Below are positions 20,622-25,998 of a DNA stretch of 64,000 nt, one piece after another; within the stretch, counting starts at the first letter, position 1; each line of letters opens with the position of its first letter. The stretch is from Agrobacterium larrymoorei (GTDB lineage Bacteria > Pseudomonadota > Alphaproteobacteria > Rhizobiales > Rhizobiaceae): NCBI RefSeq assembly GCF_013322225.1, contig NZ_JAAMFB010000031.1, positions 186,001-250,000 on the forward strand, in the 5' to 3' direction. Position numbers and translations under genes: made by a program. The notes beneath the pieces were generated by a model that worked only from the letters and a program-made list of their open reading frames with translations, was not told the origin of the DNA and searched no databases.

Positions 20622-21668
20622 TTACAGTGTTGCGAGCAGCCTGTTGCTTAATGTCCCTGCGGAAGCGAGCTGCATGGCGACTTTCTTTTCTATCGCTTCG
20701 ATAACCGTATCCGTGAAATCGACATTGGTGAGTTCACGGATGTGCCCGAGGCCGCCGGGTGAAAAAACGTTGACTTCCAGTATCTTGTCGCCGACGATGT
20801 CGAGCCCGACGAGGAACATGCCATCTTCCACCAGCTTCGGGCGCATCATTTCCGCAAGCGCGATCACTTCGTCGGTTACAGTCACCGCCTCGGCAGTACC
20901 AGACGCGTGGATGTTGGAGCGCAGATCGCCCTTTGCGGGTACACGCCTAAGGGCGGCGTAAGCACCGTCACGCATCAGCGGCTCGCCATTCATCATGAAG
21001 AAACGGATATCTCCGTTCTTTGCGGCGGGCAGATAAGCTTGGGCGATGAGGTAGCCCTCTATGCTGATAGCCTCGAAAATCTGATTGAGATTGGTCTCTT
21101 TCGAAGAGCCAATCTTGAAAACGTTCTTGCCGCCCGAGCCTTGCAATGGTTTGACGATGACGCCTTTTGGATGTGCGTCTGCAAAGGCGCGGATTTCTTC
21201 AACATTGCGGGAAATCAGGGTCGTCGGCCGCACGATTTCCGGAAAGCTCTGGAAGTAGAGCTTGTTTTGCGCCAGCGCCAGTCCCTCGGGGTCGTTCAGC
21301 ACCAGCACGCCGCGCTGTTCCGCCAAACGGCCGAACAGGATGCCGGAATGGACCGCCCAAGGCCTCGCGGTTTGATCCAGCGAGGGGTCGTTGCGCAGCA
21401 TCAGAGCGTCGATGTCCTCAATGTTGATGGTCTCGCGCTGGAGCGCGCGCTCCTGCAATGCTGCGTGGAAAGCTTCCATCTTTTTGTATTTCTGCCGAGG
21501 CATGACGAGGCCGTGCACGACCAGCGTATCATCGCGGCGAAGCGTGAAATCGCCGGGTGTGAGATAGACGACCTCGTGGCCCCGGTTCAGCGCAGCCATT
21601 GCCAGCAGTCCGGTGGCGAAGCTTGGAAGTTCGCCTTCGATGGAATTGACGAAGAATGCCAAACGCAT
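20622..21668 (-). CDS. GshB-like ATP-grasp ligase of the QEGLA operon
   Basis: ATP-dependent carboxylate-amine ligase fold of 348 residues. The nucleotide loop (GVIVKPLQGSGGKNVFKIG) and the metal-binding E-x-N strand (KILEVNVFSPGGL) match glutathione synthetase-type ATP-grasp enzymes. The N-terminus (MRLAFFVNSIEGELPSFATG) differs from the canonical proteobacterial GshB opening, so this is probably a paralogue with another substrate. ATG 21668, with AAGGAGCGG just before it, is chosen over in-frame starts up to 21989. It follows the DUF1704 gene by about 10 bases and is surely in the same transcript. Confidence 0.82.
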   Translation of the reverse strand: MRLAFFVNSIEGELPSFATGLLAMAALNRGHEVVYLTPGDFTLRRDDTLVVHGLVMPRQKYKKMEAFHAALQERALQRETINIEDIDALMLRNDPSLDQTARPWAVHSGILFGRLAEQRGVLVLNDPEGLALAQNKLYFQSFPEIVRPTTLISRNVEEIRAFADAHPKGVIVKPLQGSGGKNVFKIGSSKETNLNQIFEAISIEGYLIAQAYLPAAKNGDIRFFMMNGEPLMRDGAYAALRRVPAKGDLRSNIHASGTAEAVTVTDEVIALAEMMRPKLVEDGMFLVGLDIVGDKILEVNVFSPGGLGHIRELTNVDFTDTVIEAIEKKVAMQLASAGTLSNRLLATL

Positions 21669-21678
21669 GGTCCGCTCC

Positions 21679-23553
21679 TTATAGTGTTGCCATTTCGGCG
21701 ATTGATAGTCCGGCTTTGATCTTTTCCAGCCGCTCGCTGGATTTTGCCGGTGAAAGAAAAGCGGGGCGAATACCCGGCGGACGCAGTAACCCACGAAGTG
21801 CGAGTTCCTGCATAACCGGAAAATGTGCAGCTGAAATCTTACCCATCCAGAACGGATCGAGCGCGCCACCCTTTTGCAGGTGCTCGACAATTTCGCCGAG
21901 GCCGCGCAGATAAATCGCGTCTTTCGAAAGCCCGCCGCCTCGATAGATACGCAATACCATGTTGAAGGCACTCGCGTCGTCGAAGCCATGCTCTTCCGTC
22001 ACGATACGGAAAGTTTCGACAAAGTCCGCGCCATCGAGCATTGCATCGCAACCGACCACACGACCAGCGATCAGGCGCAGGCGTTCCCGTGTCATACCGC
22101 CCGCCAGATGTTCGGCAAGAACGGCTAGACCCTCCTGTACGCCTTCGTACCCGGAAAGCCCACTGCGGAAGAGACGTAAACCTTGGGCAGAGCCGTTGAA
22201 ATAGGTCAGTAGATGAACACCGATCTCGTGGTGCAACAGAGCGTCGACACGACGTCGTTCCATGATGGTGTGGCGGGAGATCAGGAGTTTCTCGCTGGTC
22301 ACCATCAGTCCGGGGGGAAGGTCGTCGCGGATTTCGATGCGGGCCTTGAATTCCGGGTTCTCCAAGCGGTAGGCGTCCACCATCGCACGCGCCCTTTCGG
22401 CCACTTCGTAGCATGTGACCATTGGGATGTCGTCTTCACCCTCCGGGCGTTTGCAGCGTGCCAGCACATCCAGCGCCTGTCCGAGCAGATGGCTTTCAAC
22501 TGAACCATAAAGCGCGCGGCTGAAATCTGTAAATTGGCGGCGATGCAGGTGAGCAAGCATCGTCAGTTGGAGATCTATTTCCTGCTGCTTTTCGCGATAG
22601 AGATGGTAAAGGACAGGATCTTCAAGCCGGTCGAAGGCGACGGAGTAAAGTTTGCGCTTCTGCTCCTCCACGTCGACACCCAGGGGCCGATAAAGGAAAT
22701 GAGGCGCATATTGAAAGCCGCTCTCCTTGAATTCCTCGAATGCCTGCCGAGCGTTGATAGGCGTCACGGAAAGCAGGAAGTCAAAGGATAAGGATATGTC
22801 GTCGATGGAGCGATCCGCGCGCCGTACCGCATCGACAAACGCCTTTCGACCGAGAGCACGGTGGGTACTGACCTGCAGCGCATTTTTATCCGTGGCAAAG
22901 GCTGCAAAGGCACGCAATCCGGCATCCAAAAGGTCGGCGATCATCGTCTCCCGTAAACCGGGGTAATCACTGCCGGATTCCGGCTGACGGTAAATAGGTG
23001 CAAATCGCACGCTGATGCAGGGGAATGAAAGGCCTGCTGCCCGCAGCTTCGCTACCGGATCTGCATCCAGTTCGGGCTTGGTTATCCTGGGCGTTCGAAA
23101 GCGGATATCCGCATCGCAAACGGCTTTTATGAAAACCCGTTTAGCGTTCTGCGTCTCAGGTTCCGGCGTAGCCGAAACGGAGACCTCGTAATGCGGCAGG
23201 AACGGGGAGTCGTCGGCAAGCAGGATATCGTGCTCGAGTTCGCCAACGTCCAGCACGATAAATGAGCCGAAGCGCGCCTGCATCTCATGCCCCACGGCCT
23301 CGATCAGTGGGGCGGCTTCAGAGAGATTCGAGGCGATAAGATAGGAAGCATGGGCCGATGCAATGTCTCGCGCAGCCAGGTTTTTGGTGCCGCCTGTCAG
23401 GTGAACACATAGGAATGGCAGTGGCCGGTCTATGTGAAGGCGACCGTCCTTGCCTATATCCTGCCGTATCGCTTTGCCAGCGGTTAGAGCCGCCATAATA
23501 TCCGTGTATTGACTGGCTGTAGCCTCGGCTTTTGTCGCTACCGTGTGCGTCAT
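21679..23553 (-). CDS. QEGLA-motif (DUF1704) zinc metallopeptidase-like protein
   Basis: Protein of 624 residues, known in databases under the uninformative name 'flavohemoglobin expression-modulating QEGLA motif protein'. It has an H-E-x-x-x-H zinc site, HEIGVH at residues 442-447, followed about 26 residues later by Q473-E-G-L-A477, whose Glu is the likely third zinc ligand. The same arrangement defines the eukaryotic MATCAP tyrosine carboxypeptidases, so a carboxypeptidase-like activity is a fair inference. It overlaps the upstream amidohydrolase gene by 4 bases and is followed directly by the ATP-grasp gene. Confidence 0.85.
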   Translation of the reverse strand: MTHTVATKAEATASQYTDIMAALTAGKAIRQDIGKDGRLHIDRPLPFLCVHLTGGTKNLAARDIASAHASYLIASNLSEAAPLIEAVGHEMQARFGSFIVLDVGELEHDILLADDSPFLPHYEVSVSATPEPETQNAKRVFIKAVCDADIRFRTPRITKPELDADPVAKLRAAGLSFPCISVRFAPIYRQPESGSDYPGLRETMIADLLDAGLRAFAAFATDKNALQVSTHRALGRKAFVDAVRRADRSIDDISLSFDFLLSVTPINARQAFEEFKESGFQYAPHFLYRPLGVDVEEQKRKLYSVAFDRLEDPVLYHLYREKQQEIDLQLTMLAHLHRRQFTDFSRALYGSVESHLLGQALDVLARCKRPEGEDDIPMVTCYEVAERARAMVDAYRLENPEFKARIEIRDDLPPGLMVTSEKLLISRHTIMERRRVDALLHHEIGVHLLTYFNGSAQGLRLFRSGLSGYEGVQEGLAVLAEHLAGGMTRERLRLIAGRVVGCDAMLDGADFVETFRIVTEEHGFDDASAFNMVLRIYRGGGLSKDAIYLRGLGEIVEHLQKGGALDPFWMGKISAAHFPVMQELALRGLLRPPGIRPAFLSPAKSSERLEKIKAGLSIAEMATL

Positions 23554-24368
23554 GGTCGGCTCTCGAGCATTCTCTCGAGTACGACCTCCAGCGACGCCAG
23601 CGTCTCGGATATGTCGCTTAGCATGTCGGTGTCTGGTTCACCGGTCCACTCGTCCATGAATATCTTCTTGAATTCGACCGCGATTGCGCACCCGTTCTGG
23701 CGAAACTTTTCGTGGATGAACTTCGTCTGCTCGCCTCGTCCCTGAAACGCAATATTTTCACGAACGTCGAGATGGCGTCCACCGATTTTGGCTTGGGCGA
23801 AGTGGTCGATTACGCCATCTACAATATATGCCCAGCGGTCACGGTCCATCGAGGAGGTGCCGATATTGATATCCGGTGCATCGCTCGCCGTGGTTGGTGC
23901 TGCATCTGGGCCGCTTCTGCGGTGATTATAGGTATGGATATCCAGCACGACGAATTGACCGAAGCGAATTTCGATACCAGCCAGATAATTTTCCAGCATG
24001 GAATAGTACTGTTGATGCGAGGTTAGCGAACGCCTCAGTGCCTCGTCATCTGGACGATCTTTCCAGACCTCCAATCCCCAGGACTGCTCGGGTGTCAGAT
24101 AAATCGCCTGTTCCCGAGCGCGGTTGAGGTCAATTTCGAAGCGGGAACGGTGGAATGCGATCTTGTTCGTCAATCCCGAAATCATCTGCGCGGTGAACGG
24201 ATCTTCTTCGTAAAGACGCTGCTGGTCTGAAAGGTTCATCAGCGGCAACAGTTCATCGCGAACGTGATGACCGTCATGGATCGCGGTACCGATCACTGGC
24301 GAATGCCCGTAAGTCAGTGACCAGAGTTGCCTTGGCCTCGTAATAGTGCGTCTCGTGAAATCGTCCAT
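23550..24368 (-). CDS. N-formylglutamate amidohydrolase-like protein
   Basis: Protein of 272 residues of the N-formylglutamate amidohydrolase fold, a zinc-dependent relative of carboxypeptidases. Supporting segments are VIGTAIHDGHHVRDEL (candidate metal ligands), AFHRSRFEIDLNRAREQAIYL and FVVLDIHTYNHRR. No histidine-utilisation genes are nearby, so the usual role in histidine breakdown is unlikely. ATG 24368, preceded by GAGGG, is preferred over in-frame starts at 24380 and 24458. It is the first gene of the three-gene operon and overlaps the next by ATGA. Confidence 0.82.
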   Translation of the reverse strand: MDDFTRRTITRPRQLWSLTYGHSPVIGTAIHDGHHVRDELLPLMNLSDQQRLYEEDPFTAQMISGLTNKIAFHRSRFEIDLNRAREQAIYLTPEQSWGLEVWKDRPDDEALRRSLTSHQQYYSMLENYLAGIEIRFGQFVVLDIHTYNHRRSGPDAAPTTASDAPDINIGTSSMDRDRWAYIVDGVIDHFAQAKIGGRHLDVRENIAFQGRGEQTKFIHEKFRQNGCAIAVEFKKIFMDEWTGEPDTDMLSDISETLASLEVVLERMLESRP

Positions 24369-24481: not shown

Positions 24482-24715
24482 TCAGCCTTTGCGTATGCGG
24501 AAGCGGTGTCCGTCCTGCGTCGCGATCTTTTCGATCAGCGTGTGGCCTTCTTCATTGCACATATGCGGAATGTCGATGACGGCCAGCGGATCGGTGGTGT
24601 CAACGAGCAGTTCGTCACCCACGGTCATGGCGGATAGTTTTTTGCGGCTTCTCATGGCGGGAAGAGGGCATTTGAGCCCTCTTAGATCGTAAAGAACCGC
24701 CGACCGTACGGTCAT
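24482..24715 (-). CDS. TusA-family sulfur carrier protein
   Basis: Protein of 77 residues with the TusA signature: C16-P-L-P near the N-terminus (DLRGLKCPLPAMRSRKKL), where the Cys carries the persulfide, followed by the beta-alpha-beta fold (GDELLVDTTDPLAVIDIPHMC). TusA-like proteins deliver sulfur to tRNA, molybdenum cofactor and other acceptors. The start codon overlaps the stop of the upstream L,D-transpeptidase gene by 4 bases, an unexpected coupling of a cytoplasmic sulfur carrier with a cell-wall enzyme. Confidence 0.88.
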   Translation of the reverse strand: MTVRSAVLYDLRGLKCPLPAMRSRKKLSAMTVGDELLVDTTDPLAVIDIPHMCNEEGHTLIEKIATQDGHRFRIRKG

Positions 24716-25998
24716 TCCTTCGCCCAGAACTTCCAGAAAGGCTTCTTTGCTGCCTGTTCGTCTGAAGGTGCGGAGGCGCTGAAGGCGAGCGGATTGACCG
24801 CAGGAACCGGAATGCCCTGAGATGCATTCGCCTGTGGGGTTTGGGTGGCAGATGCCACCATAACCGAGGCTGGACGTGCCTGCGCCGCCGGTTGCCCTAC
24901 AGTTGGCTGTGGTGCAACGATCCTCGGGGTAGAAGCAGACGCGATTGCTGTTGCAGCCGGTGCGGAAAGGCCTTTTGCTGCCTTCTTTTCAAGCAGCGCA
25001 GCAAACTCGGTTTCCTTCATCAGCTTTCCAGCCTTCAGGGCGGAGCCGGTCGGCGCATATGCCGGTTCGCGACCCTTTCGCTTGTCGGCAACCAGCACCT
25101 TGCGCTCTGCCTCACTCGGGTCATACCAAACCATGCCGTCAAACTTCTTCATCGCCTTGTCATAGGCAACGTCATAGGTCTTGTCATAGCTGGAGAGCGC
25201 ACTGACGAGCGCAGGCGGCGTACTCATCGCGGGGCAAGCGGCAGCGGCGTTGAACTGTCCGCCCTGTGTTTGCTGATTGAACGTGTACTTCTTTTCACAG
25301 ACGTTGACTTCCGGCGGACGCTTCGTGACTTCGAAATGGTCGTAGCCGACCTTCAGCATTTTCCAGAATTCGTAATTCTCGCTCTTGTGATGGCGTGCCA
25401 TGTTTTCCGCCGTCATGCGGAAAGGTAAAGCCTGAAGCTGGATTGCCTTTTGCCCGCCCTTGAAGGCGTCGCGCGCAAAGCCGTAAATTTCCAGCATCTG
25501 CGCATCGGTCATGGAGTAGCAGCCGGAGGAAGAGCAGGCACCGTGGATCATCAGGTTGGTGCCGTTACGCCCATTGGCCTGATCGTAGCGGTTGGGAAAG
25601 CCGGTATTGATGGAAAGGTAGTAGCTGGAATAGGGGTTCATATGGCCGGGCGAAAGGTTATAGAAACCTTCCGGCGCCTGCCTGTCACCTTCTTTGACCT
25701 TGGGGCCGAGTTTACCCGACCATGCGCAAATATCATAGGAAGCGATGACCTCGAAGCGGTTGTCTCGCTTAGCTTTCCAGACTTCGAGCTTTCCCTCTTC
25801 CTTCAGAATACGGATCATGATCGGCGCATTGCGATCCATATTCTTCTTGTCCATCTCCGCAAGGATGGCAGGAGAAAGAGGATAATCGACCTTGTTCTTG
25901 ACGTGAGAAACATCGCGCTCGACGGTTTCGAGCGTTTCGTTGCAGCCCACGAGCACGAACGCCGTGCAGGCAAGAAGAGCAATTTGTCTCAAACGCAT
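24712..25998 (-). CDS. Lipoprotein L,D-transpeptidase (YafK-like YkuD domain)
   Basis: Envelope enzyme of 428 residues. The N-terminus is a lipoprotein signal with LVGC as the lipobox (Cys at about residue 19). The YkuD domain spans about 55-240. Its active-site segment is HGACSSSGCYSMTD, with the His and catalytic Cys of L,D-transpeptidases, in the YafK/DpaA branch that includes enzymes detaching lipoproteins from peptidoglycan. A long Pro/Ala-rich C-terminal region is probably disordered. ATG 25998 is chosen because it gives the signal peptide. An in-frame ATG at 26103 would bury it. Confidence 0.87.
   Translation of the reverse strand: MRLRQIALLACTAFVLVGCNETLETVERDVSHVKNKVDYPLSPAILAEMDKKNMDRNAPIMIRILKEEGKLEVWKAKRDNRFEVIASYDICAWSGKLGPKVKEGDRQAPEGFYNLSPGHMNPYSSYYLSINTGFPNRYDQANGRNGTNLMIHGACSSSGCYSMTDAQMLEIYGFARDAFKGGQKAIQLQALPFRMTAENMARHHKSENYEFWKMLKVGYDHFEVTKRPPEVNVCEKKYTFNQQTQGGQFNAAAACPAMSTPPALVSALSSYDKTYDVAYDKAMKKFDGMVWYDPSEAERKVLVADKRKGREPAYAPTGSALKAGKLMKETEFAALLEKKAAKGLSAPAATAIASASTPRIVAPQPTVGQPAAQARPASVMVASATQTPQANASQGIPVPAVNPLAFSASAPSDEQAAKKPFWKFWAKE

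Follow-up and report, generated by a model that had tools for sequence, protein, structure and literature searches.

The window examined here, a stretch of 64,000 nucleotides from Agrobacterium larrymoorei (assembly GCF_013322225.1, contig NZ_JAAMFB010000031.1, positions 186,001 to 250,000), raises the question of whether three adjoining genes on its minus strand act together, and on what kind of bond. They encode, in order and head to tail, an N-formylglutamate amidohydrolase-type enzyme (FGase), a metallopeptidase of the QEGLA/MATCAP family and an ATP-grasp ligase resembling glutathione synthetase (GshB) (Table 1). The original prediction, made from the letters alone, described this trio as an operon-like unit with a 4-base overlap and a gap of about 10 bases. 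The layout was borne out, with 10 nucleotides between the peptidase stop and the ligase ATG, and conserved linkage together with FGase–MATCAP gene fusions supports the view that the three genes form one enzyme unit. Our tentative reading, to which we assign a probability of roughly 0.4, is that the ligase forms amide bonds at a carboxylate and that these are cut by a two-headed metallohydrolase, much as RimK and RimB do, for adjustment to low osmolarity.

Linkage was examined first among near relatives. When genome contigs were scanned with the peptidase, 95 pattern matches were obtained and 67 relatives confirmed among them; these are titled Agrobacterium, Rhizobium, Mesorhizobium, Devosia, Shinella, Ensifer and their kin, with one locus (L053) titled Rhodobacteraceae. 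The FGase, peptidase and ligase genes occur in the same order and on the same strand at 67/67 loci, with broken open frames at two (L071 and L074), and the distance from peptidase stop to ligase start is 8–12 nucleotides at 59 of them. Because these loci belong to near relatives (51–84% identity), almost all Rhizobiales, they are not independent. In Sinorhizobium meliloti, the genes are located on pSymB. Their flanks vary: by a crude clustering, the commonest gene cluster was present at 14/67 loci upstream and 10/67 downstream. Among viral sequences, 18 pattern matches were obtained and none was confirmed.

The same association was found when the sample was widened to 398 genomes from across the phylum. 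Ligases of the subfamily NF009110 exceeded the cut-off at 16 places in 14 genomes, with scores of 436–488 bits, and were cleanly split from the next-best match, which at 241 bits falls within the ordinary GshB range. Fifteen of the 16 adjoin a MATCAP gene, and the sixteenth starts 48 bases from a contig end. An FGase gene lies within 6 kb in 12 of these 15 cases, and in two of the remaining three the MATCAP gene is cut by a contig end (G113:C47 and G173). MATCAP as a whole family is not tied to the unit, as 38 of its 53 matches (in 47 genomes) have no ligase or FGase within 6 kb; nor is FGase, for which 43 of 55 matches are near no MATCAP. The co-occurrence that the original prediction had proposed as a check was thus obtained for the ligase subfamily, which was not seen apart from MATCAP where this could be judged, and not for the two hydrolase families, which often stand elsewhere.

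In six genomes, FGase and MATCAP are encoded in one open frame of 660–703 residues, placed after the ligase gene. MATCAP proteins were sorted into kind A (the window type, with a separate FGase), kind B (the fusion) and a remainder of solitary proteins; a fragment at a contig end (G113:C132) was left out of this assignment. In a tree of 41 sequences chosen from those fetched (22 of kind A, six of kind B and 13 solitary), kind A formed one clade (100/99), and kinds A and B together with three solitary short MATCAPs also formed one clade (100/100). Because these three sit among the fusions, some solitary MATCAPs may have lost their FGase and ligase; the supporting branch (93/90) was not starred. 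The other ten solitary sequences stand apart on long branches flagged by the program. Among 20 proteins scanned as neighbours of short MATCAP genes, no common theme was recognized.

The N-terminal third of the window peptidase is a degenerate FGase domain that lacks active-site residues. In hhalign comparisons, the first 245 residues (73 sequences) matched the FGase profile with a probability of 92 and an E-value of 7e-7 over 125 columns, and matched the fused FGase domains with an E-value of 1e-6; for five pairs of unrelated profiles run as controls, the E-values were 0.1–0.8. The AlphaFold2 model of the peptidase (predicted local distance difference test score, pLDDT, 84.1; predicted template modelling score 0.68) matched the FGases 2q7s and 2odf in Foldseek with a probability of 0.96–0.99 but weak E-values of 0.09–0.23. 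This model also matched amidases, poly-gamma-glutamate hydrolase 3a9l and carboxypeptidases that included several M32 enzymes, whose similarity presumably comes from the MATCAP part. By hhalign alignment to the FGase profile, the position of the second FGase His is occupied in 51 A-type peptidases by Gly (27), Asp (23) or Ala (1), and that of the FGase Glu by Arg in 50 and Glu in one. Next to the lost His position, E105, D109 and D115 are invariant in 51/51 sequences, so the decayed domain may have acquired a new binding role. Given this degenerate domain, the fusion probably came first, and the simplest history would be that FGase and MATCAP were joined in an ancestor and that the FGase half degenerated once a second FGase had arisen.

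The rest of the peptidase is a MATCAP domain. It carries the HEIGVH and QEGLA motifs named in the original prediction and passes both PF08014 (329 bits, cut-off 27) and TIGR02421 (437 bits, cut-off 338.65); HE[IV]GVH and QEGLA were each present in 73/73 class A peptidase sequences examined. A profile match to the MATCAP1 chain 7z5g (E 2.4e-5) is restricted to this part, and the chain was absent from the 50 Foldseek matches listed for the peptidase model. Single-sequence searches of the PDB with the peptidase and with the FGase gave chance matches only, and the FGase profile gave none.

The separate FGase of the window keeps nine active-site-type positions (His, Asp, Arg, Asp, Asn, Arg, His, Glu and Glu) common to all five other FGases of the genome, and each of them recurs in 71 or all of the 72 sequences of this FGase type. 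Of six own-FGase frames considered, one (L001, plus strand) proved to be a spurious antisense frame, and the counts use the remaining five. Its AlphaFold2 model (pLDDT 90.7) has the FGases 2q7s and 2odf as top PDB matches in Foldseek, followed weakly by carboxypeptidases. Its fold and active-site-type residues resemble those of HutG-type N-formylglutamate amidohydrolases (PF05013). However, its PF05013 score of 82–83 bits (cut-off 28.9) is below the 143–248 bits of the five other FGases, it has no NCBIfam match, and no hut gene was seen among the neighbours examined; on sequence grounds, the last two points speak against a role in N-formylglutamate hydrolysis during histidine degradation. The ligase scores 186 bits against PF02955 (cut-off 23), passes NF009110 (PRK12458) with 480.6 bits (cut-off 408) and keeps the ATP-grasp core residues K136, K173, D290, E298 and N300, which it has in common with the GshB of its own genome and with RimK. 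We take the ATP and Mg roles of these residues to be those of E. coli GshB.

A possible indication of when the unit is used comes from Photobacterium damselae. According to one report, low salinity (1% NaCl) raised the 'glutathione synthase GshB' gene A0J47_RS17020 38.4-fold, the QEGLA gene A0J47_RS17025 27.5-fold and RimK 52-fold, and A0J47_RS17020 was taken there as glutathione synthetase (PMC10308900). Because the two tags are adjacent, and the ligase and an FGase::MATCAP fusion are adjacent in Photobacterium sp. DA100, this pair is very probably a unit of kind B. Judging from the gene names, the adjacent tags and the congener, the induced 'GshB' of that report is probably the unit ligase and not glutathione synthetase. 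Pseudomonas aeruginosa lacking three RloA proteases cannot grow at low osmolarity, and growth is restored by the loss of rloB or rloC (PMC12239564). In one genus (g131), rloA- and rloB-family genes lie directly after one ligase copy in 4/4 ligase-bearing genomes (G093, G113, G173 and G109); in G121, a fifth genome from g131, no ligase exceeds the cut-off. At L122, an rloC-like ATPgrasp_ST gene comes next after the rloA- and rloB-family genes, and members of the same cluster occur in L124 and L126. The neighbours of the g131 ligase had been guessed from gene lengths to be a tripartite transporter, which was wrong. Among the 14 ligase-bearing genomes, ligase/rlo adjacency was seen in no other genus. 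The retropepsin-like PF05618 peptidase is present in nine of the 14, adjoins the unit only in g131 and has 0 matches in the window genome.

An ATP-grasp ligase with opposing peptidases is a known kind of system, and a 2009 survey of ATP-grasp/peptidase gene neighbourhoods by Iyer et al. reportedly linked amide ligases with peptidases and pointed to a bacterial origin of TTL-type enzymes. Like the unit, RimK and RimB, the pair behind RpsF polyglutamylation in Pseudomonas, comprise an ATP-grasp ligase and a peptidase encoded in one operon; they add and remove residues (PMC12239564), and RimK shares the induction at low salt in P. damselae (PMC10308900). However, RimB is a retropepsin-like aspartic peptidase, whereas the unit peptidases are FGase- and MATCAP-type metalloenzymes, and the unit ligase is closer to GshB. 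The rloABC genes of P. aeruginosa also combine an ATP-grasp enzyme with a peptidase under an osmotic theme, in addition to the gene order seen in g131, but RloA peptidases are secreted aspartic enzymes. The tubulin carboxypeptidases MATCAP1/TMCP1 and TMCP2 share with the window peptidase the PF08014 family, the HExxH motif and the 7z5g profile match; this likeness covers the MATCAP part, and their substrate is eukaryotic tubulin. TTL and CCP are likewise tubulin-tail enzymes, of ATP-grasp ligase and hydrolase folds, respectively. TMCP is described as acting on tubulin tails in PMC10499314.

In the reading favored here, the ligase would spend ATP on forming an amide between an amino acid and a carboxylate carried by a small acidic peptide or protein tail, and a two-headed metallohydrolase, with an FGase-type and a MATCAP-type carboxypeptidase head, would take such amide bonds apart. 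Both heads would reside in one protein in the six other sampled genomes with a fusion. In the window lineage, the working FGase head would be the product of the separate gene, and the MATCAP-fused copy, without some of its active-site residues, would probably bind substrate or dock the free FGase. The unit would then operate as a writer-and-eraser pair of the RimK/RimB type and help the cell adjust to low osmolarity. We infer that the ligase and the hydrolases make and cut the same bond, that the substrate is of this acidic kind, that the free FGase may dock and that low osmolarity matters in rhizobia. A bolder extension, which we consider a long shot, would see a bacterial writer-and-eraser code on an acidic tail, built from the three folds that edit tubulin tails (ATP-grasp as in TTL/TTLL, FGase/M14-like as in the CCP deglutamylases, and MATCAP), set by osmolarity and using the dead FGase domain as a docking platform; eukaryotic tail editing may then have drawn on such bacterial parts. 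This tubulin parallel is an analogy from common enzyme folds.

Several observations weigh against the writer-and-eraser reading. Induction at low salt is documented in a single species, only distantly related to that of the window. As a further difference from rloABC, neither the rloA nor the rloB family has a match in the window genome, and G113 carries two other ligase copies without rlo genes next to them. The third ligase-adjoining MATCAP gene without an FGase (G113:C16) seems truly to have none nearby. In G093:C24 (L118:6658-9610), a long A-type MATCAP gene overlaps an AstE/AspA-family gene (PF24827, 127 bits); FGase is missing from the vicinity, and the contig has no NF009110 ligase. A fusion in Vibrio sp. 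HDW18 (L151:4539-6965), following a DUF413/maoP gene, has no adjoining ligase. In the fusion L111:5998-7980 (G304), the FGase half lacks the second His and the Glu, and its genome yielded no other FGase match, so FGase activity would not always be needed. Finally, six of the 14 ligase-bearing genomes carry GCS2 yet give no further GshB-type match over 60 bits: G006, G037, G093, G113 and G173 have a second match of 27–58 bits, and in G109 the ligase is the only match. Three of these six genomes are 99% complete.

The alternative that deserves most attention, although we find it doubtful, is a one-way pathway in which the ligase would build a small acylated or gamma-glutamyl peptide, for example a peptide metabolite or a tripeptide similar to glutathione; the hydrolases would act later, or in salvage, by removing an N-acyl group and a C-terminal residue. 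It would suit an FGase that keeps the active-site-type residues of the genome's other FGases, and it draws on G093:C24, where AstE/AspA, another family of N-acyl amino acid hydrolases, occupies the expected FGase place beside MATCAP. Six unit ligases compared were 29–32% identical to one GshB and 24–26% to one RimK, and the Rhizobiales loci revealed no conserved gene for a protein substrate or a carrier next to the unit. However, over the 67 loci, no biosynthetic, transport or tailoring gene was found to be conserved with the unit.

It is less probable that the ligase serves as an additional glutathione synthetase or replaces the regular one, with the hydrolases turning over glutathione or gamma-glutamyl peptides; we judge this unlikely. 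NF009110 carries the name glutathione synthetase, and the ligase shares with GshB the family, the ATP and Mg residues and about 30% identity. Each of the 14 ligase-bearing genomes also carries a gene resembling GshA (GCS2 in nine and Glu_cys_ligase in five); a scan by PF08886 gave no match, and neither did its controls, so it is uninformative. In the six genomes with GCS2 and no other clear GshB-like enzyme, a glutathione role stays open, and the ligase might make glutathione there. The arginines of GshB are also kept in the ligase, but they are kept just as well in the three RimK sequences used for comparison, apart from a Lys at one site in one of them; they therefore do not fix the substrate, and they were rejected as a sign of a gamma-glutamyl one. 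The ligase also falls below both GshB equivalog cut-offs (TIGR01380, 203 against 299.05 bits; NF003573, 221 against 272 bits) and has SPGG where GshB has SPT. Gly takes the Thr site in 17/17 ligases compared, with SPT.IRE as the mark of GshB resting on two GshB sequences. Moreover, a regular GshB stands alongside the ligase in eight of the 14 genomes, namely seven others and the window genome, where it scores 244 bits against 188 for the unit ligase. The original prediction was right that the database names mislead, and the ligase is not this cell's only glutathione synthetase.

A pathway of the LysW/LysX kind, based on an amino-group carrier, appears quite improbable; here the ligase would load a small carrier protein and the peptidase would release the product. 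LysX is an ATP-grasp relative, and the window ligase scores 45 bits against TIGR02144, under the 275.6 cut-off. Six non-Rhizobiales loci encode members of a small-protein family close to the unit or to its FGase (L119:2737-3009; L123:9036-9338, where there is no FGase; L149:958-1269; L125:11174-11895, with two copies; L148:3292-3522; L110:9566-9748). By eye, these proteins show a signal-peptide-like start, which argues against a carrier of this kind, and two Cys; the one of L110 has no Pfam match. A role as partner or substrate of the unit is possible. In the 900-bp flanks of 68 Rhizobiales-type sets, the largest related groups of small open reading frames, among the six largest per side, had 15 members upstream (a TetR gene) and 14 downstream, and no widely common small substrate protein was seen. 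Lastly, hitch-hiking of neighbours with no joint function, to which the many MATCAP and FGase matches standing apart might point, is already contradicted by the linkage at 67/67 loci and for 15/16 ligases, the gene fusions and the FGase-derived domain.

No description of FGase, MATCAP and ATP-grasp ligase as one unit, of their fusion or of the decayed domain was found in the open-licence papers searched. Should the writer-and-eraser reading prove true, the labels 'glutathione synthetase', 'N-formylglutamate amidohydrolase' and 'flavohemoglobin expression-modulating' would hide a single peptide-editing unit, and would have to be corrected in many alpha- and gammaproteobacteria and probably also in one published low-salinity study. 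It would also offer a bacterial setting for finding the original substrate of the MATCAP family, otherwise known from tubulin in the literature covered.

Table 1. Features of the three-gene unit and two genes upstream of it, in window coordinates
Feature	Position	Strand	Basis or remark
FGase-type amidohydrolase, 272 amino acids, first gene of the unit, predicted active	23550..24368	-	PF05013, residues, AlphaFold2/Foldseek
ATGA, 4-nucleotide overlap of FGase stop and peptidase start	23550..23553	-	read from sequence
QEGLA/MATCAP metallopeptidase, long form, 624 amino acids	21679..23553	-	PF08014, TIGR02421
Degenerate FGase domain, N-terminal ~245 residues of peptidase	22819..23553	-	hhalign, Foldseek, lost residues
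MATCAP catalytic domain	21715..22815	-	PF08014 residues 273-613, TIGR02421 residues 247-612; 7z5g profile match
HEIGVH metal-binding motif, peptidase residues 442-447	22213..22230	-	sequence
QEGLA motif, peptidase residues 473-477	22123..22137	-	probable further metal ligand (inferred role)
GGAG ribosome-binding-like site of ligase, within the 10-nucleotide gap	21675..21678	-	read from sequence
GshB-like ATP-grasp ligase, 348 amino acids, subfamily NF009110	20622..21668	-	NF009110 cut-off passed; ATP-grasp core residues
TusA sulfur-carrier gene, upstream of FGase	24482-24715	-	PF01206, 69 bits
YkuD (L,D-transpeptidase-like) gene	24712-25998	-	30.6 bits; lipoprotein-like start by eye

Among the neighbours, the EamA gene does follow the ligase on the same strand after about 200 nucleotides, as had been noted, and was dropped as a partner, with an orthologue at only 2/67 relative loci. 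The TusA gene, which overlaps the stop of the YkuD gene by ATGA, was rejected together with the latter as an upstream partner; in searches with YkuD and an inner piece of TusA, both were present at the same two of the 67 loci as EamA. A second ATP-grasp gene downstream in Rhizobium loci proved to be an artefact of single-linkage clustering, and the gene resembles a methyltransferase by eye. A defence-system search gave no match. Elsewhere, a DUF413 gene also adjoins the ligase in L114. A solitary MATCAP gene in L137:3043-5617 (G290:C135) is divergent from a RimK gene, and in L129 RimK lies about 5 kb away; the divergent pair was not seen in two other genomes of the G290 genus examined (L134 and L135). 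A second FGase of the same subtype, in L147:5244-7275 (G368:C1), adjoins a gene matching the Tle1-like phospholipase family of the type VI secretion system. At the four non-Rhizobiales loci analysed with Pfam (L110, L116, L121 and L122), the upstream side carries divergent LysR genes.

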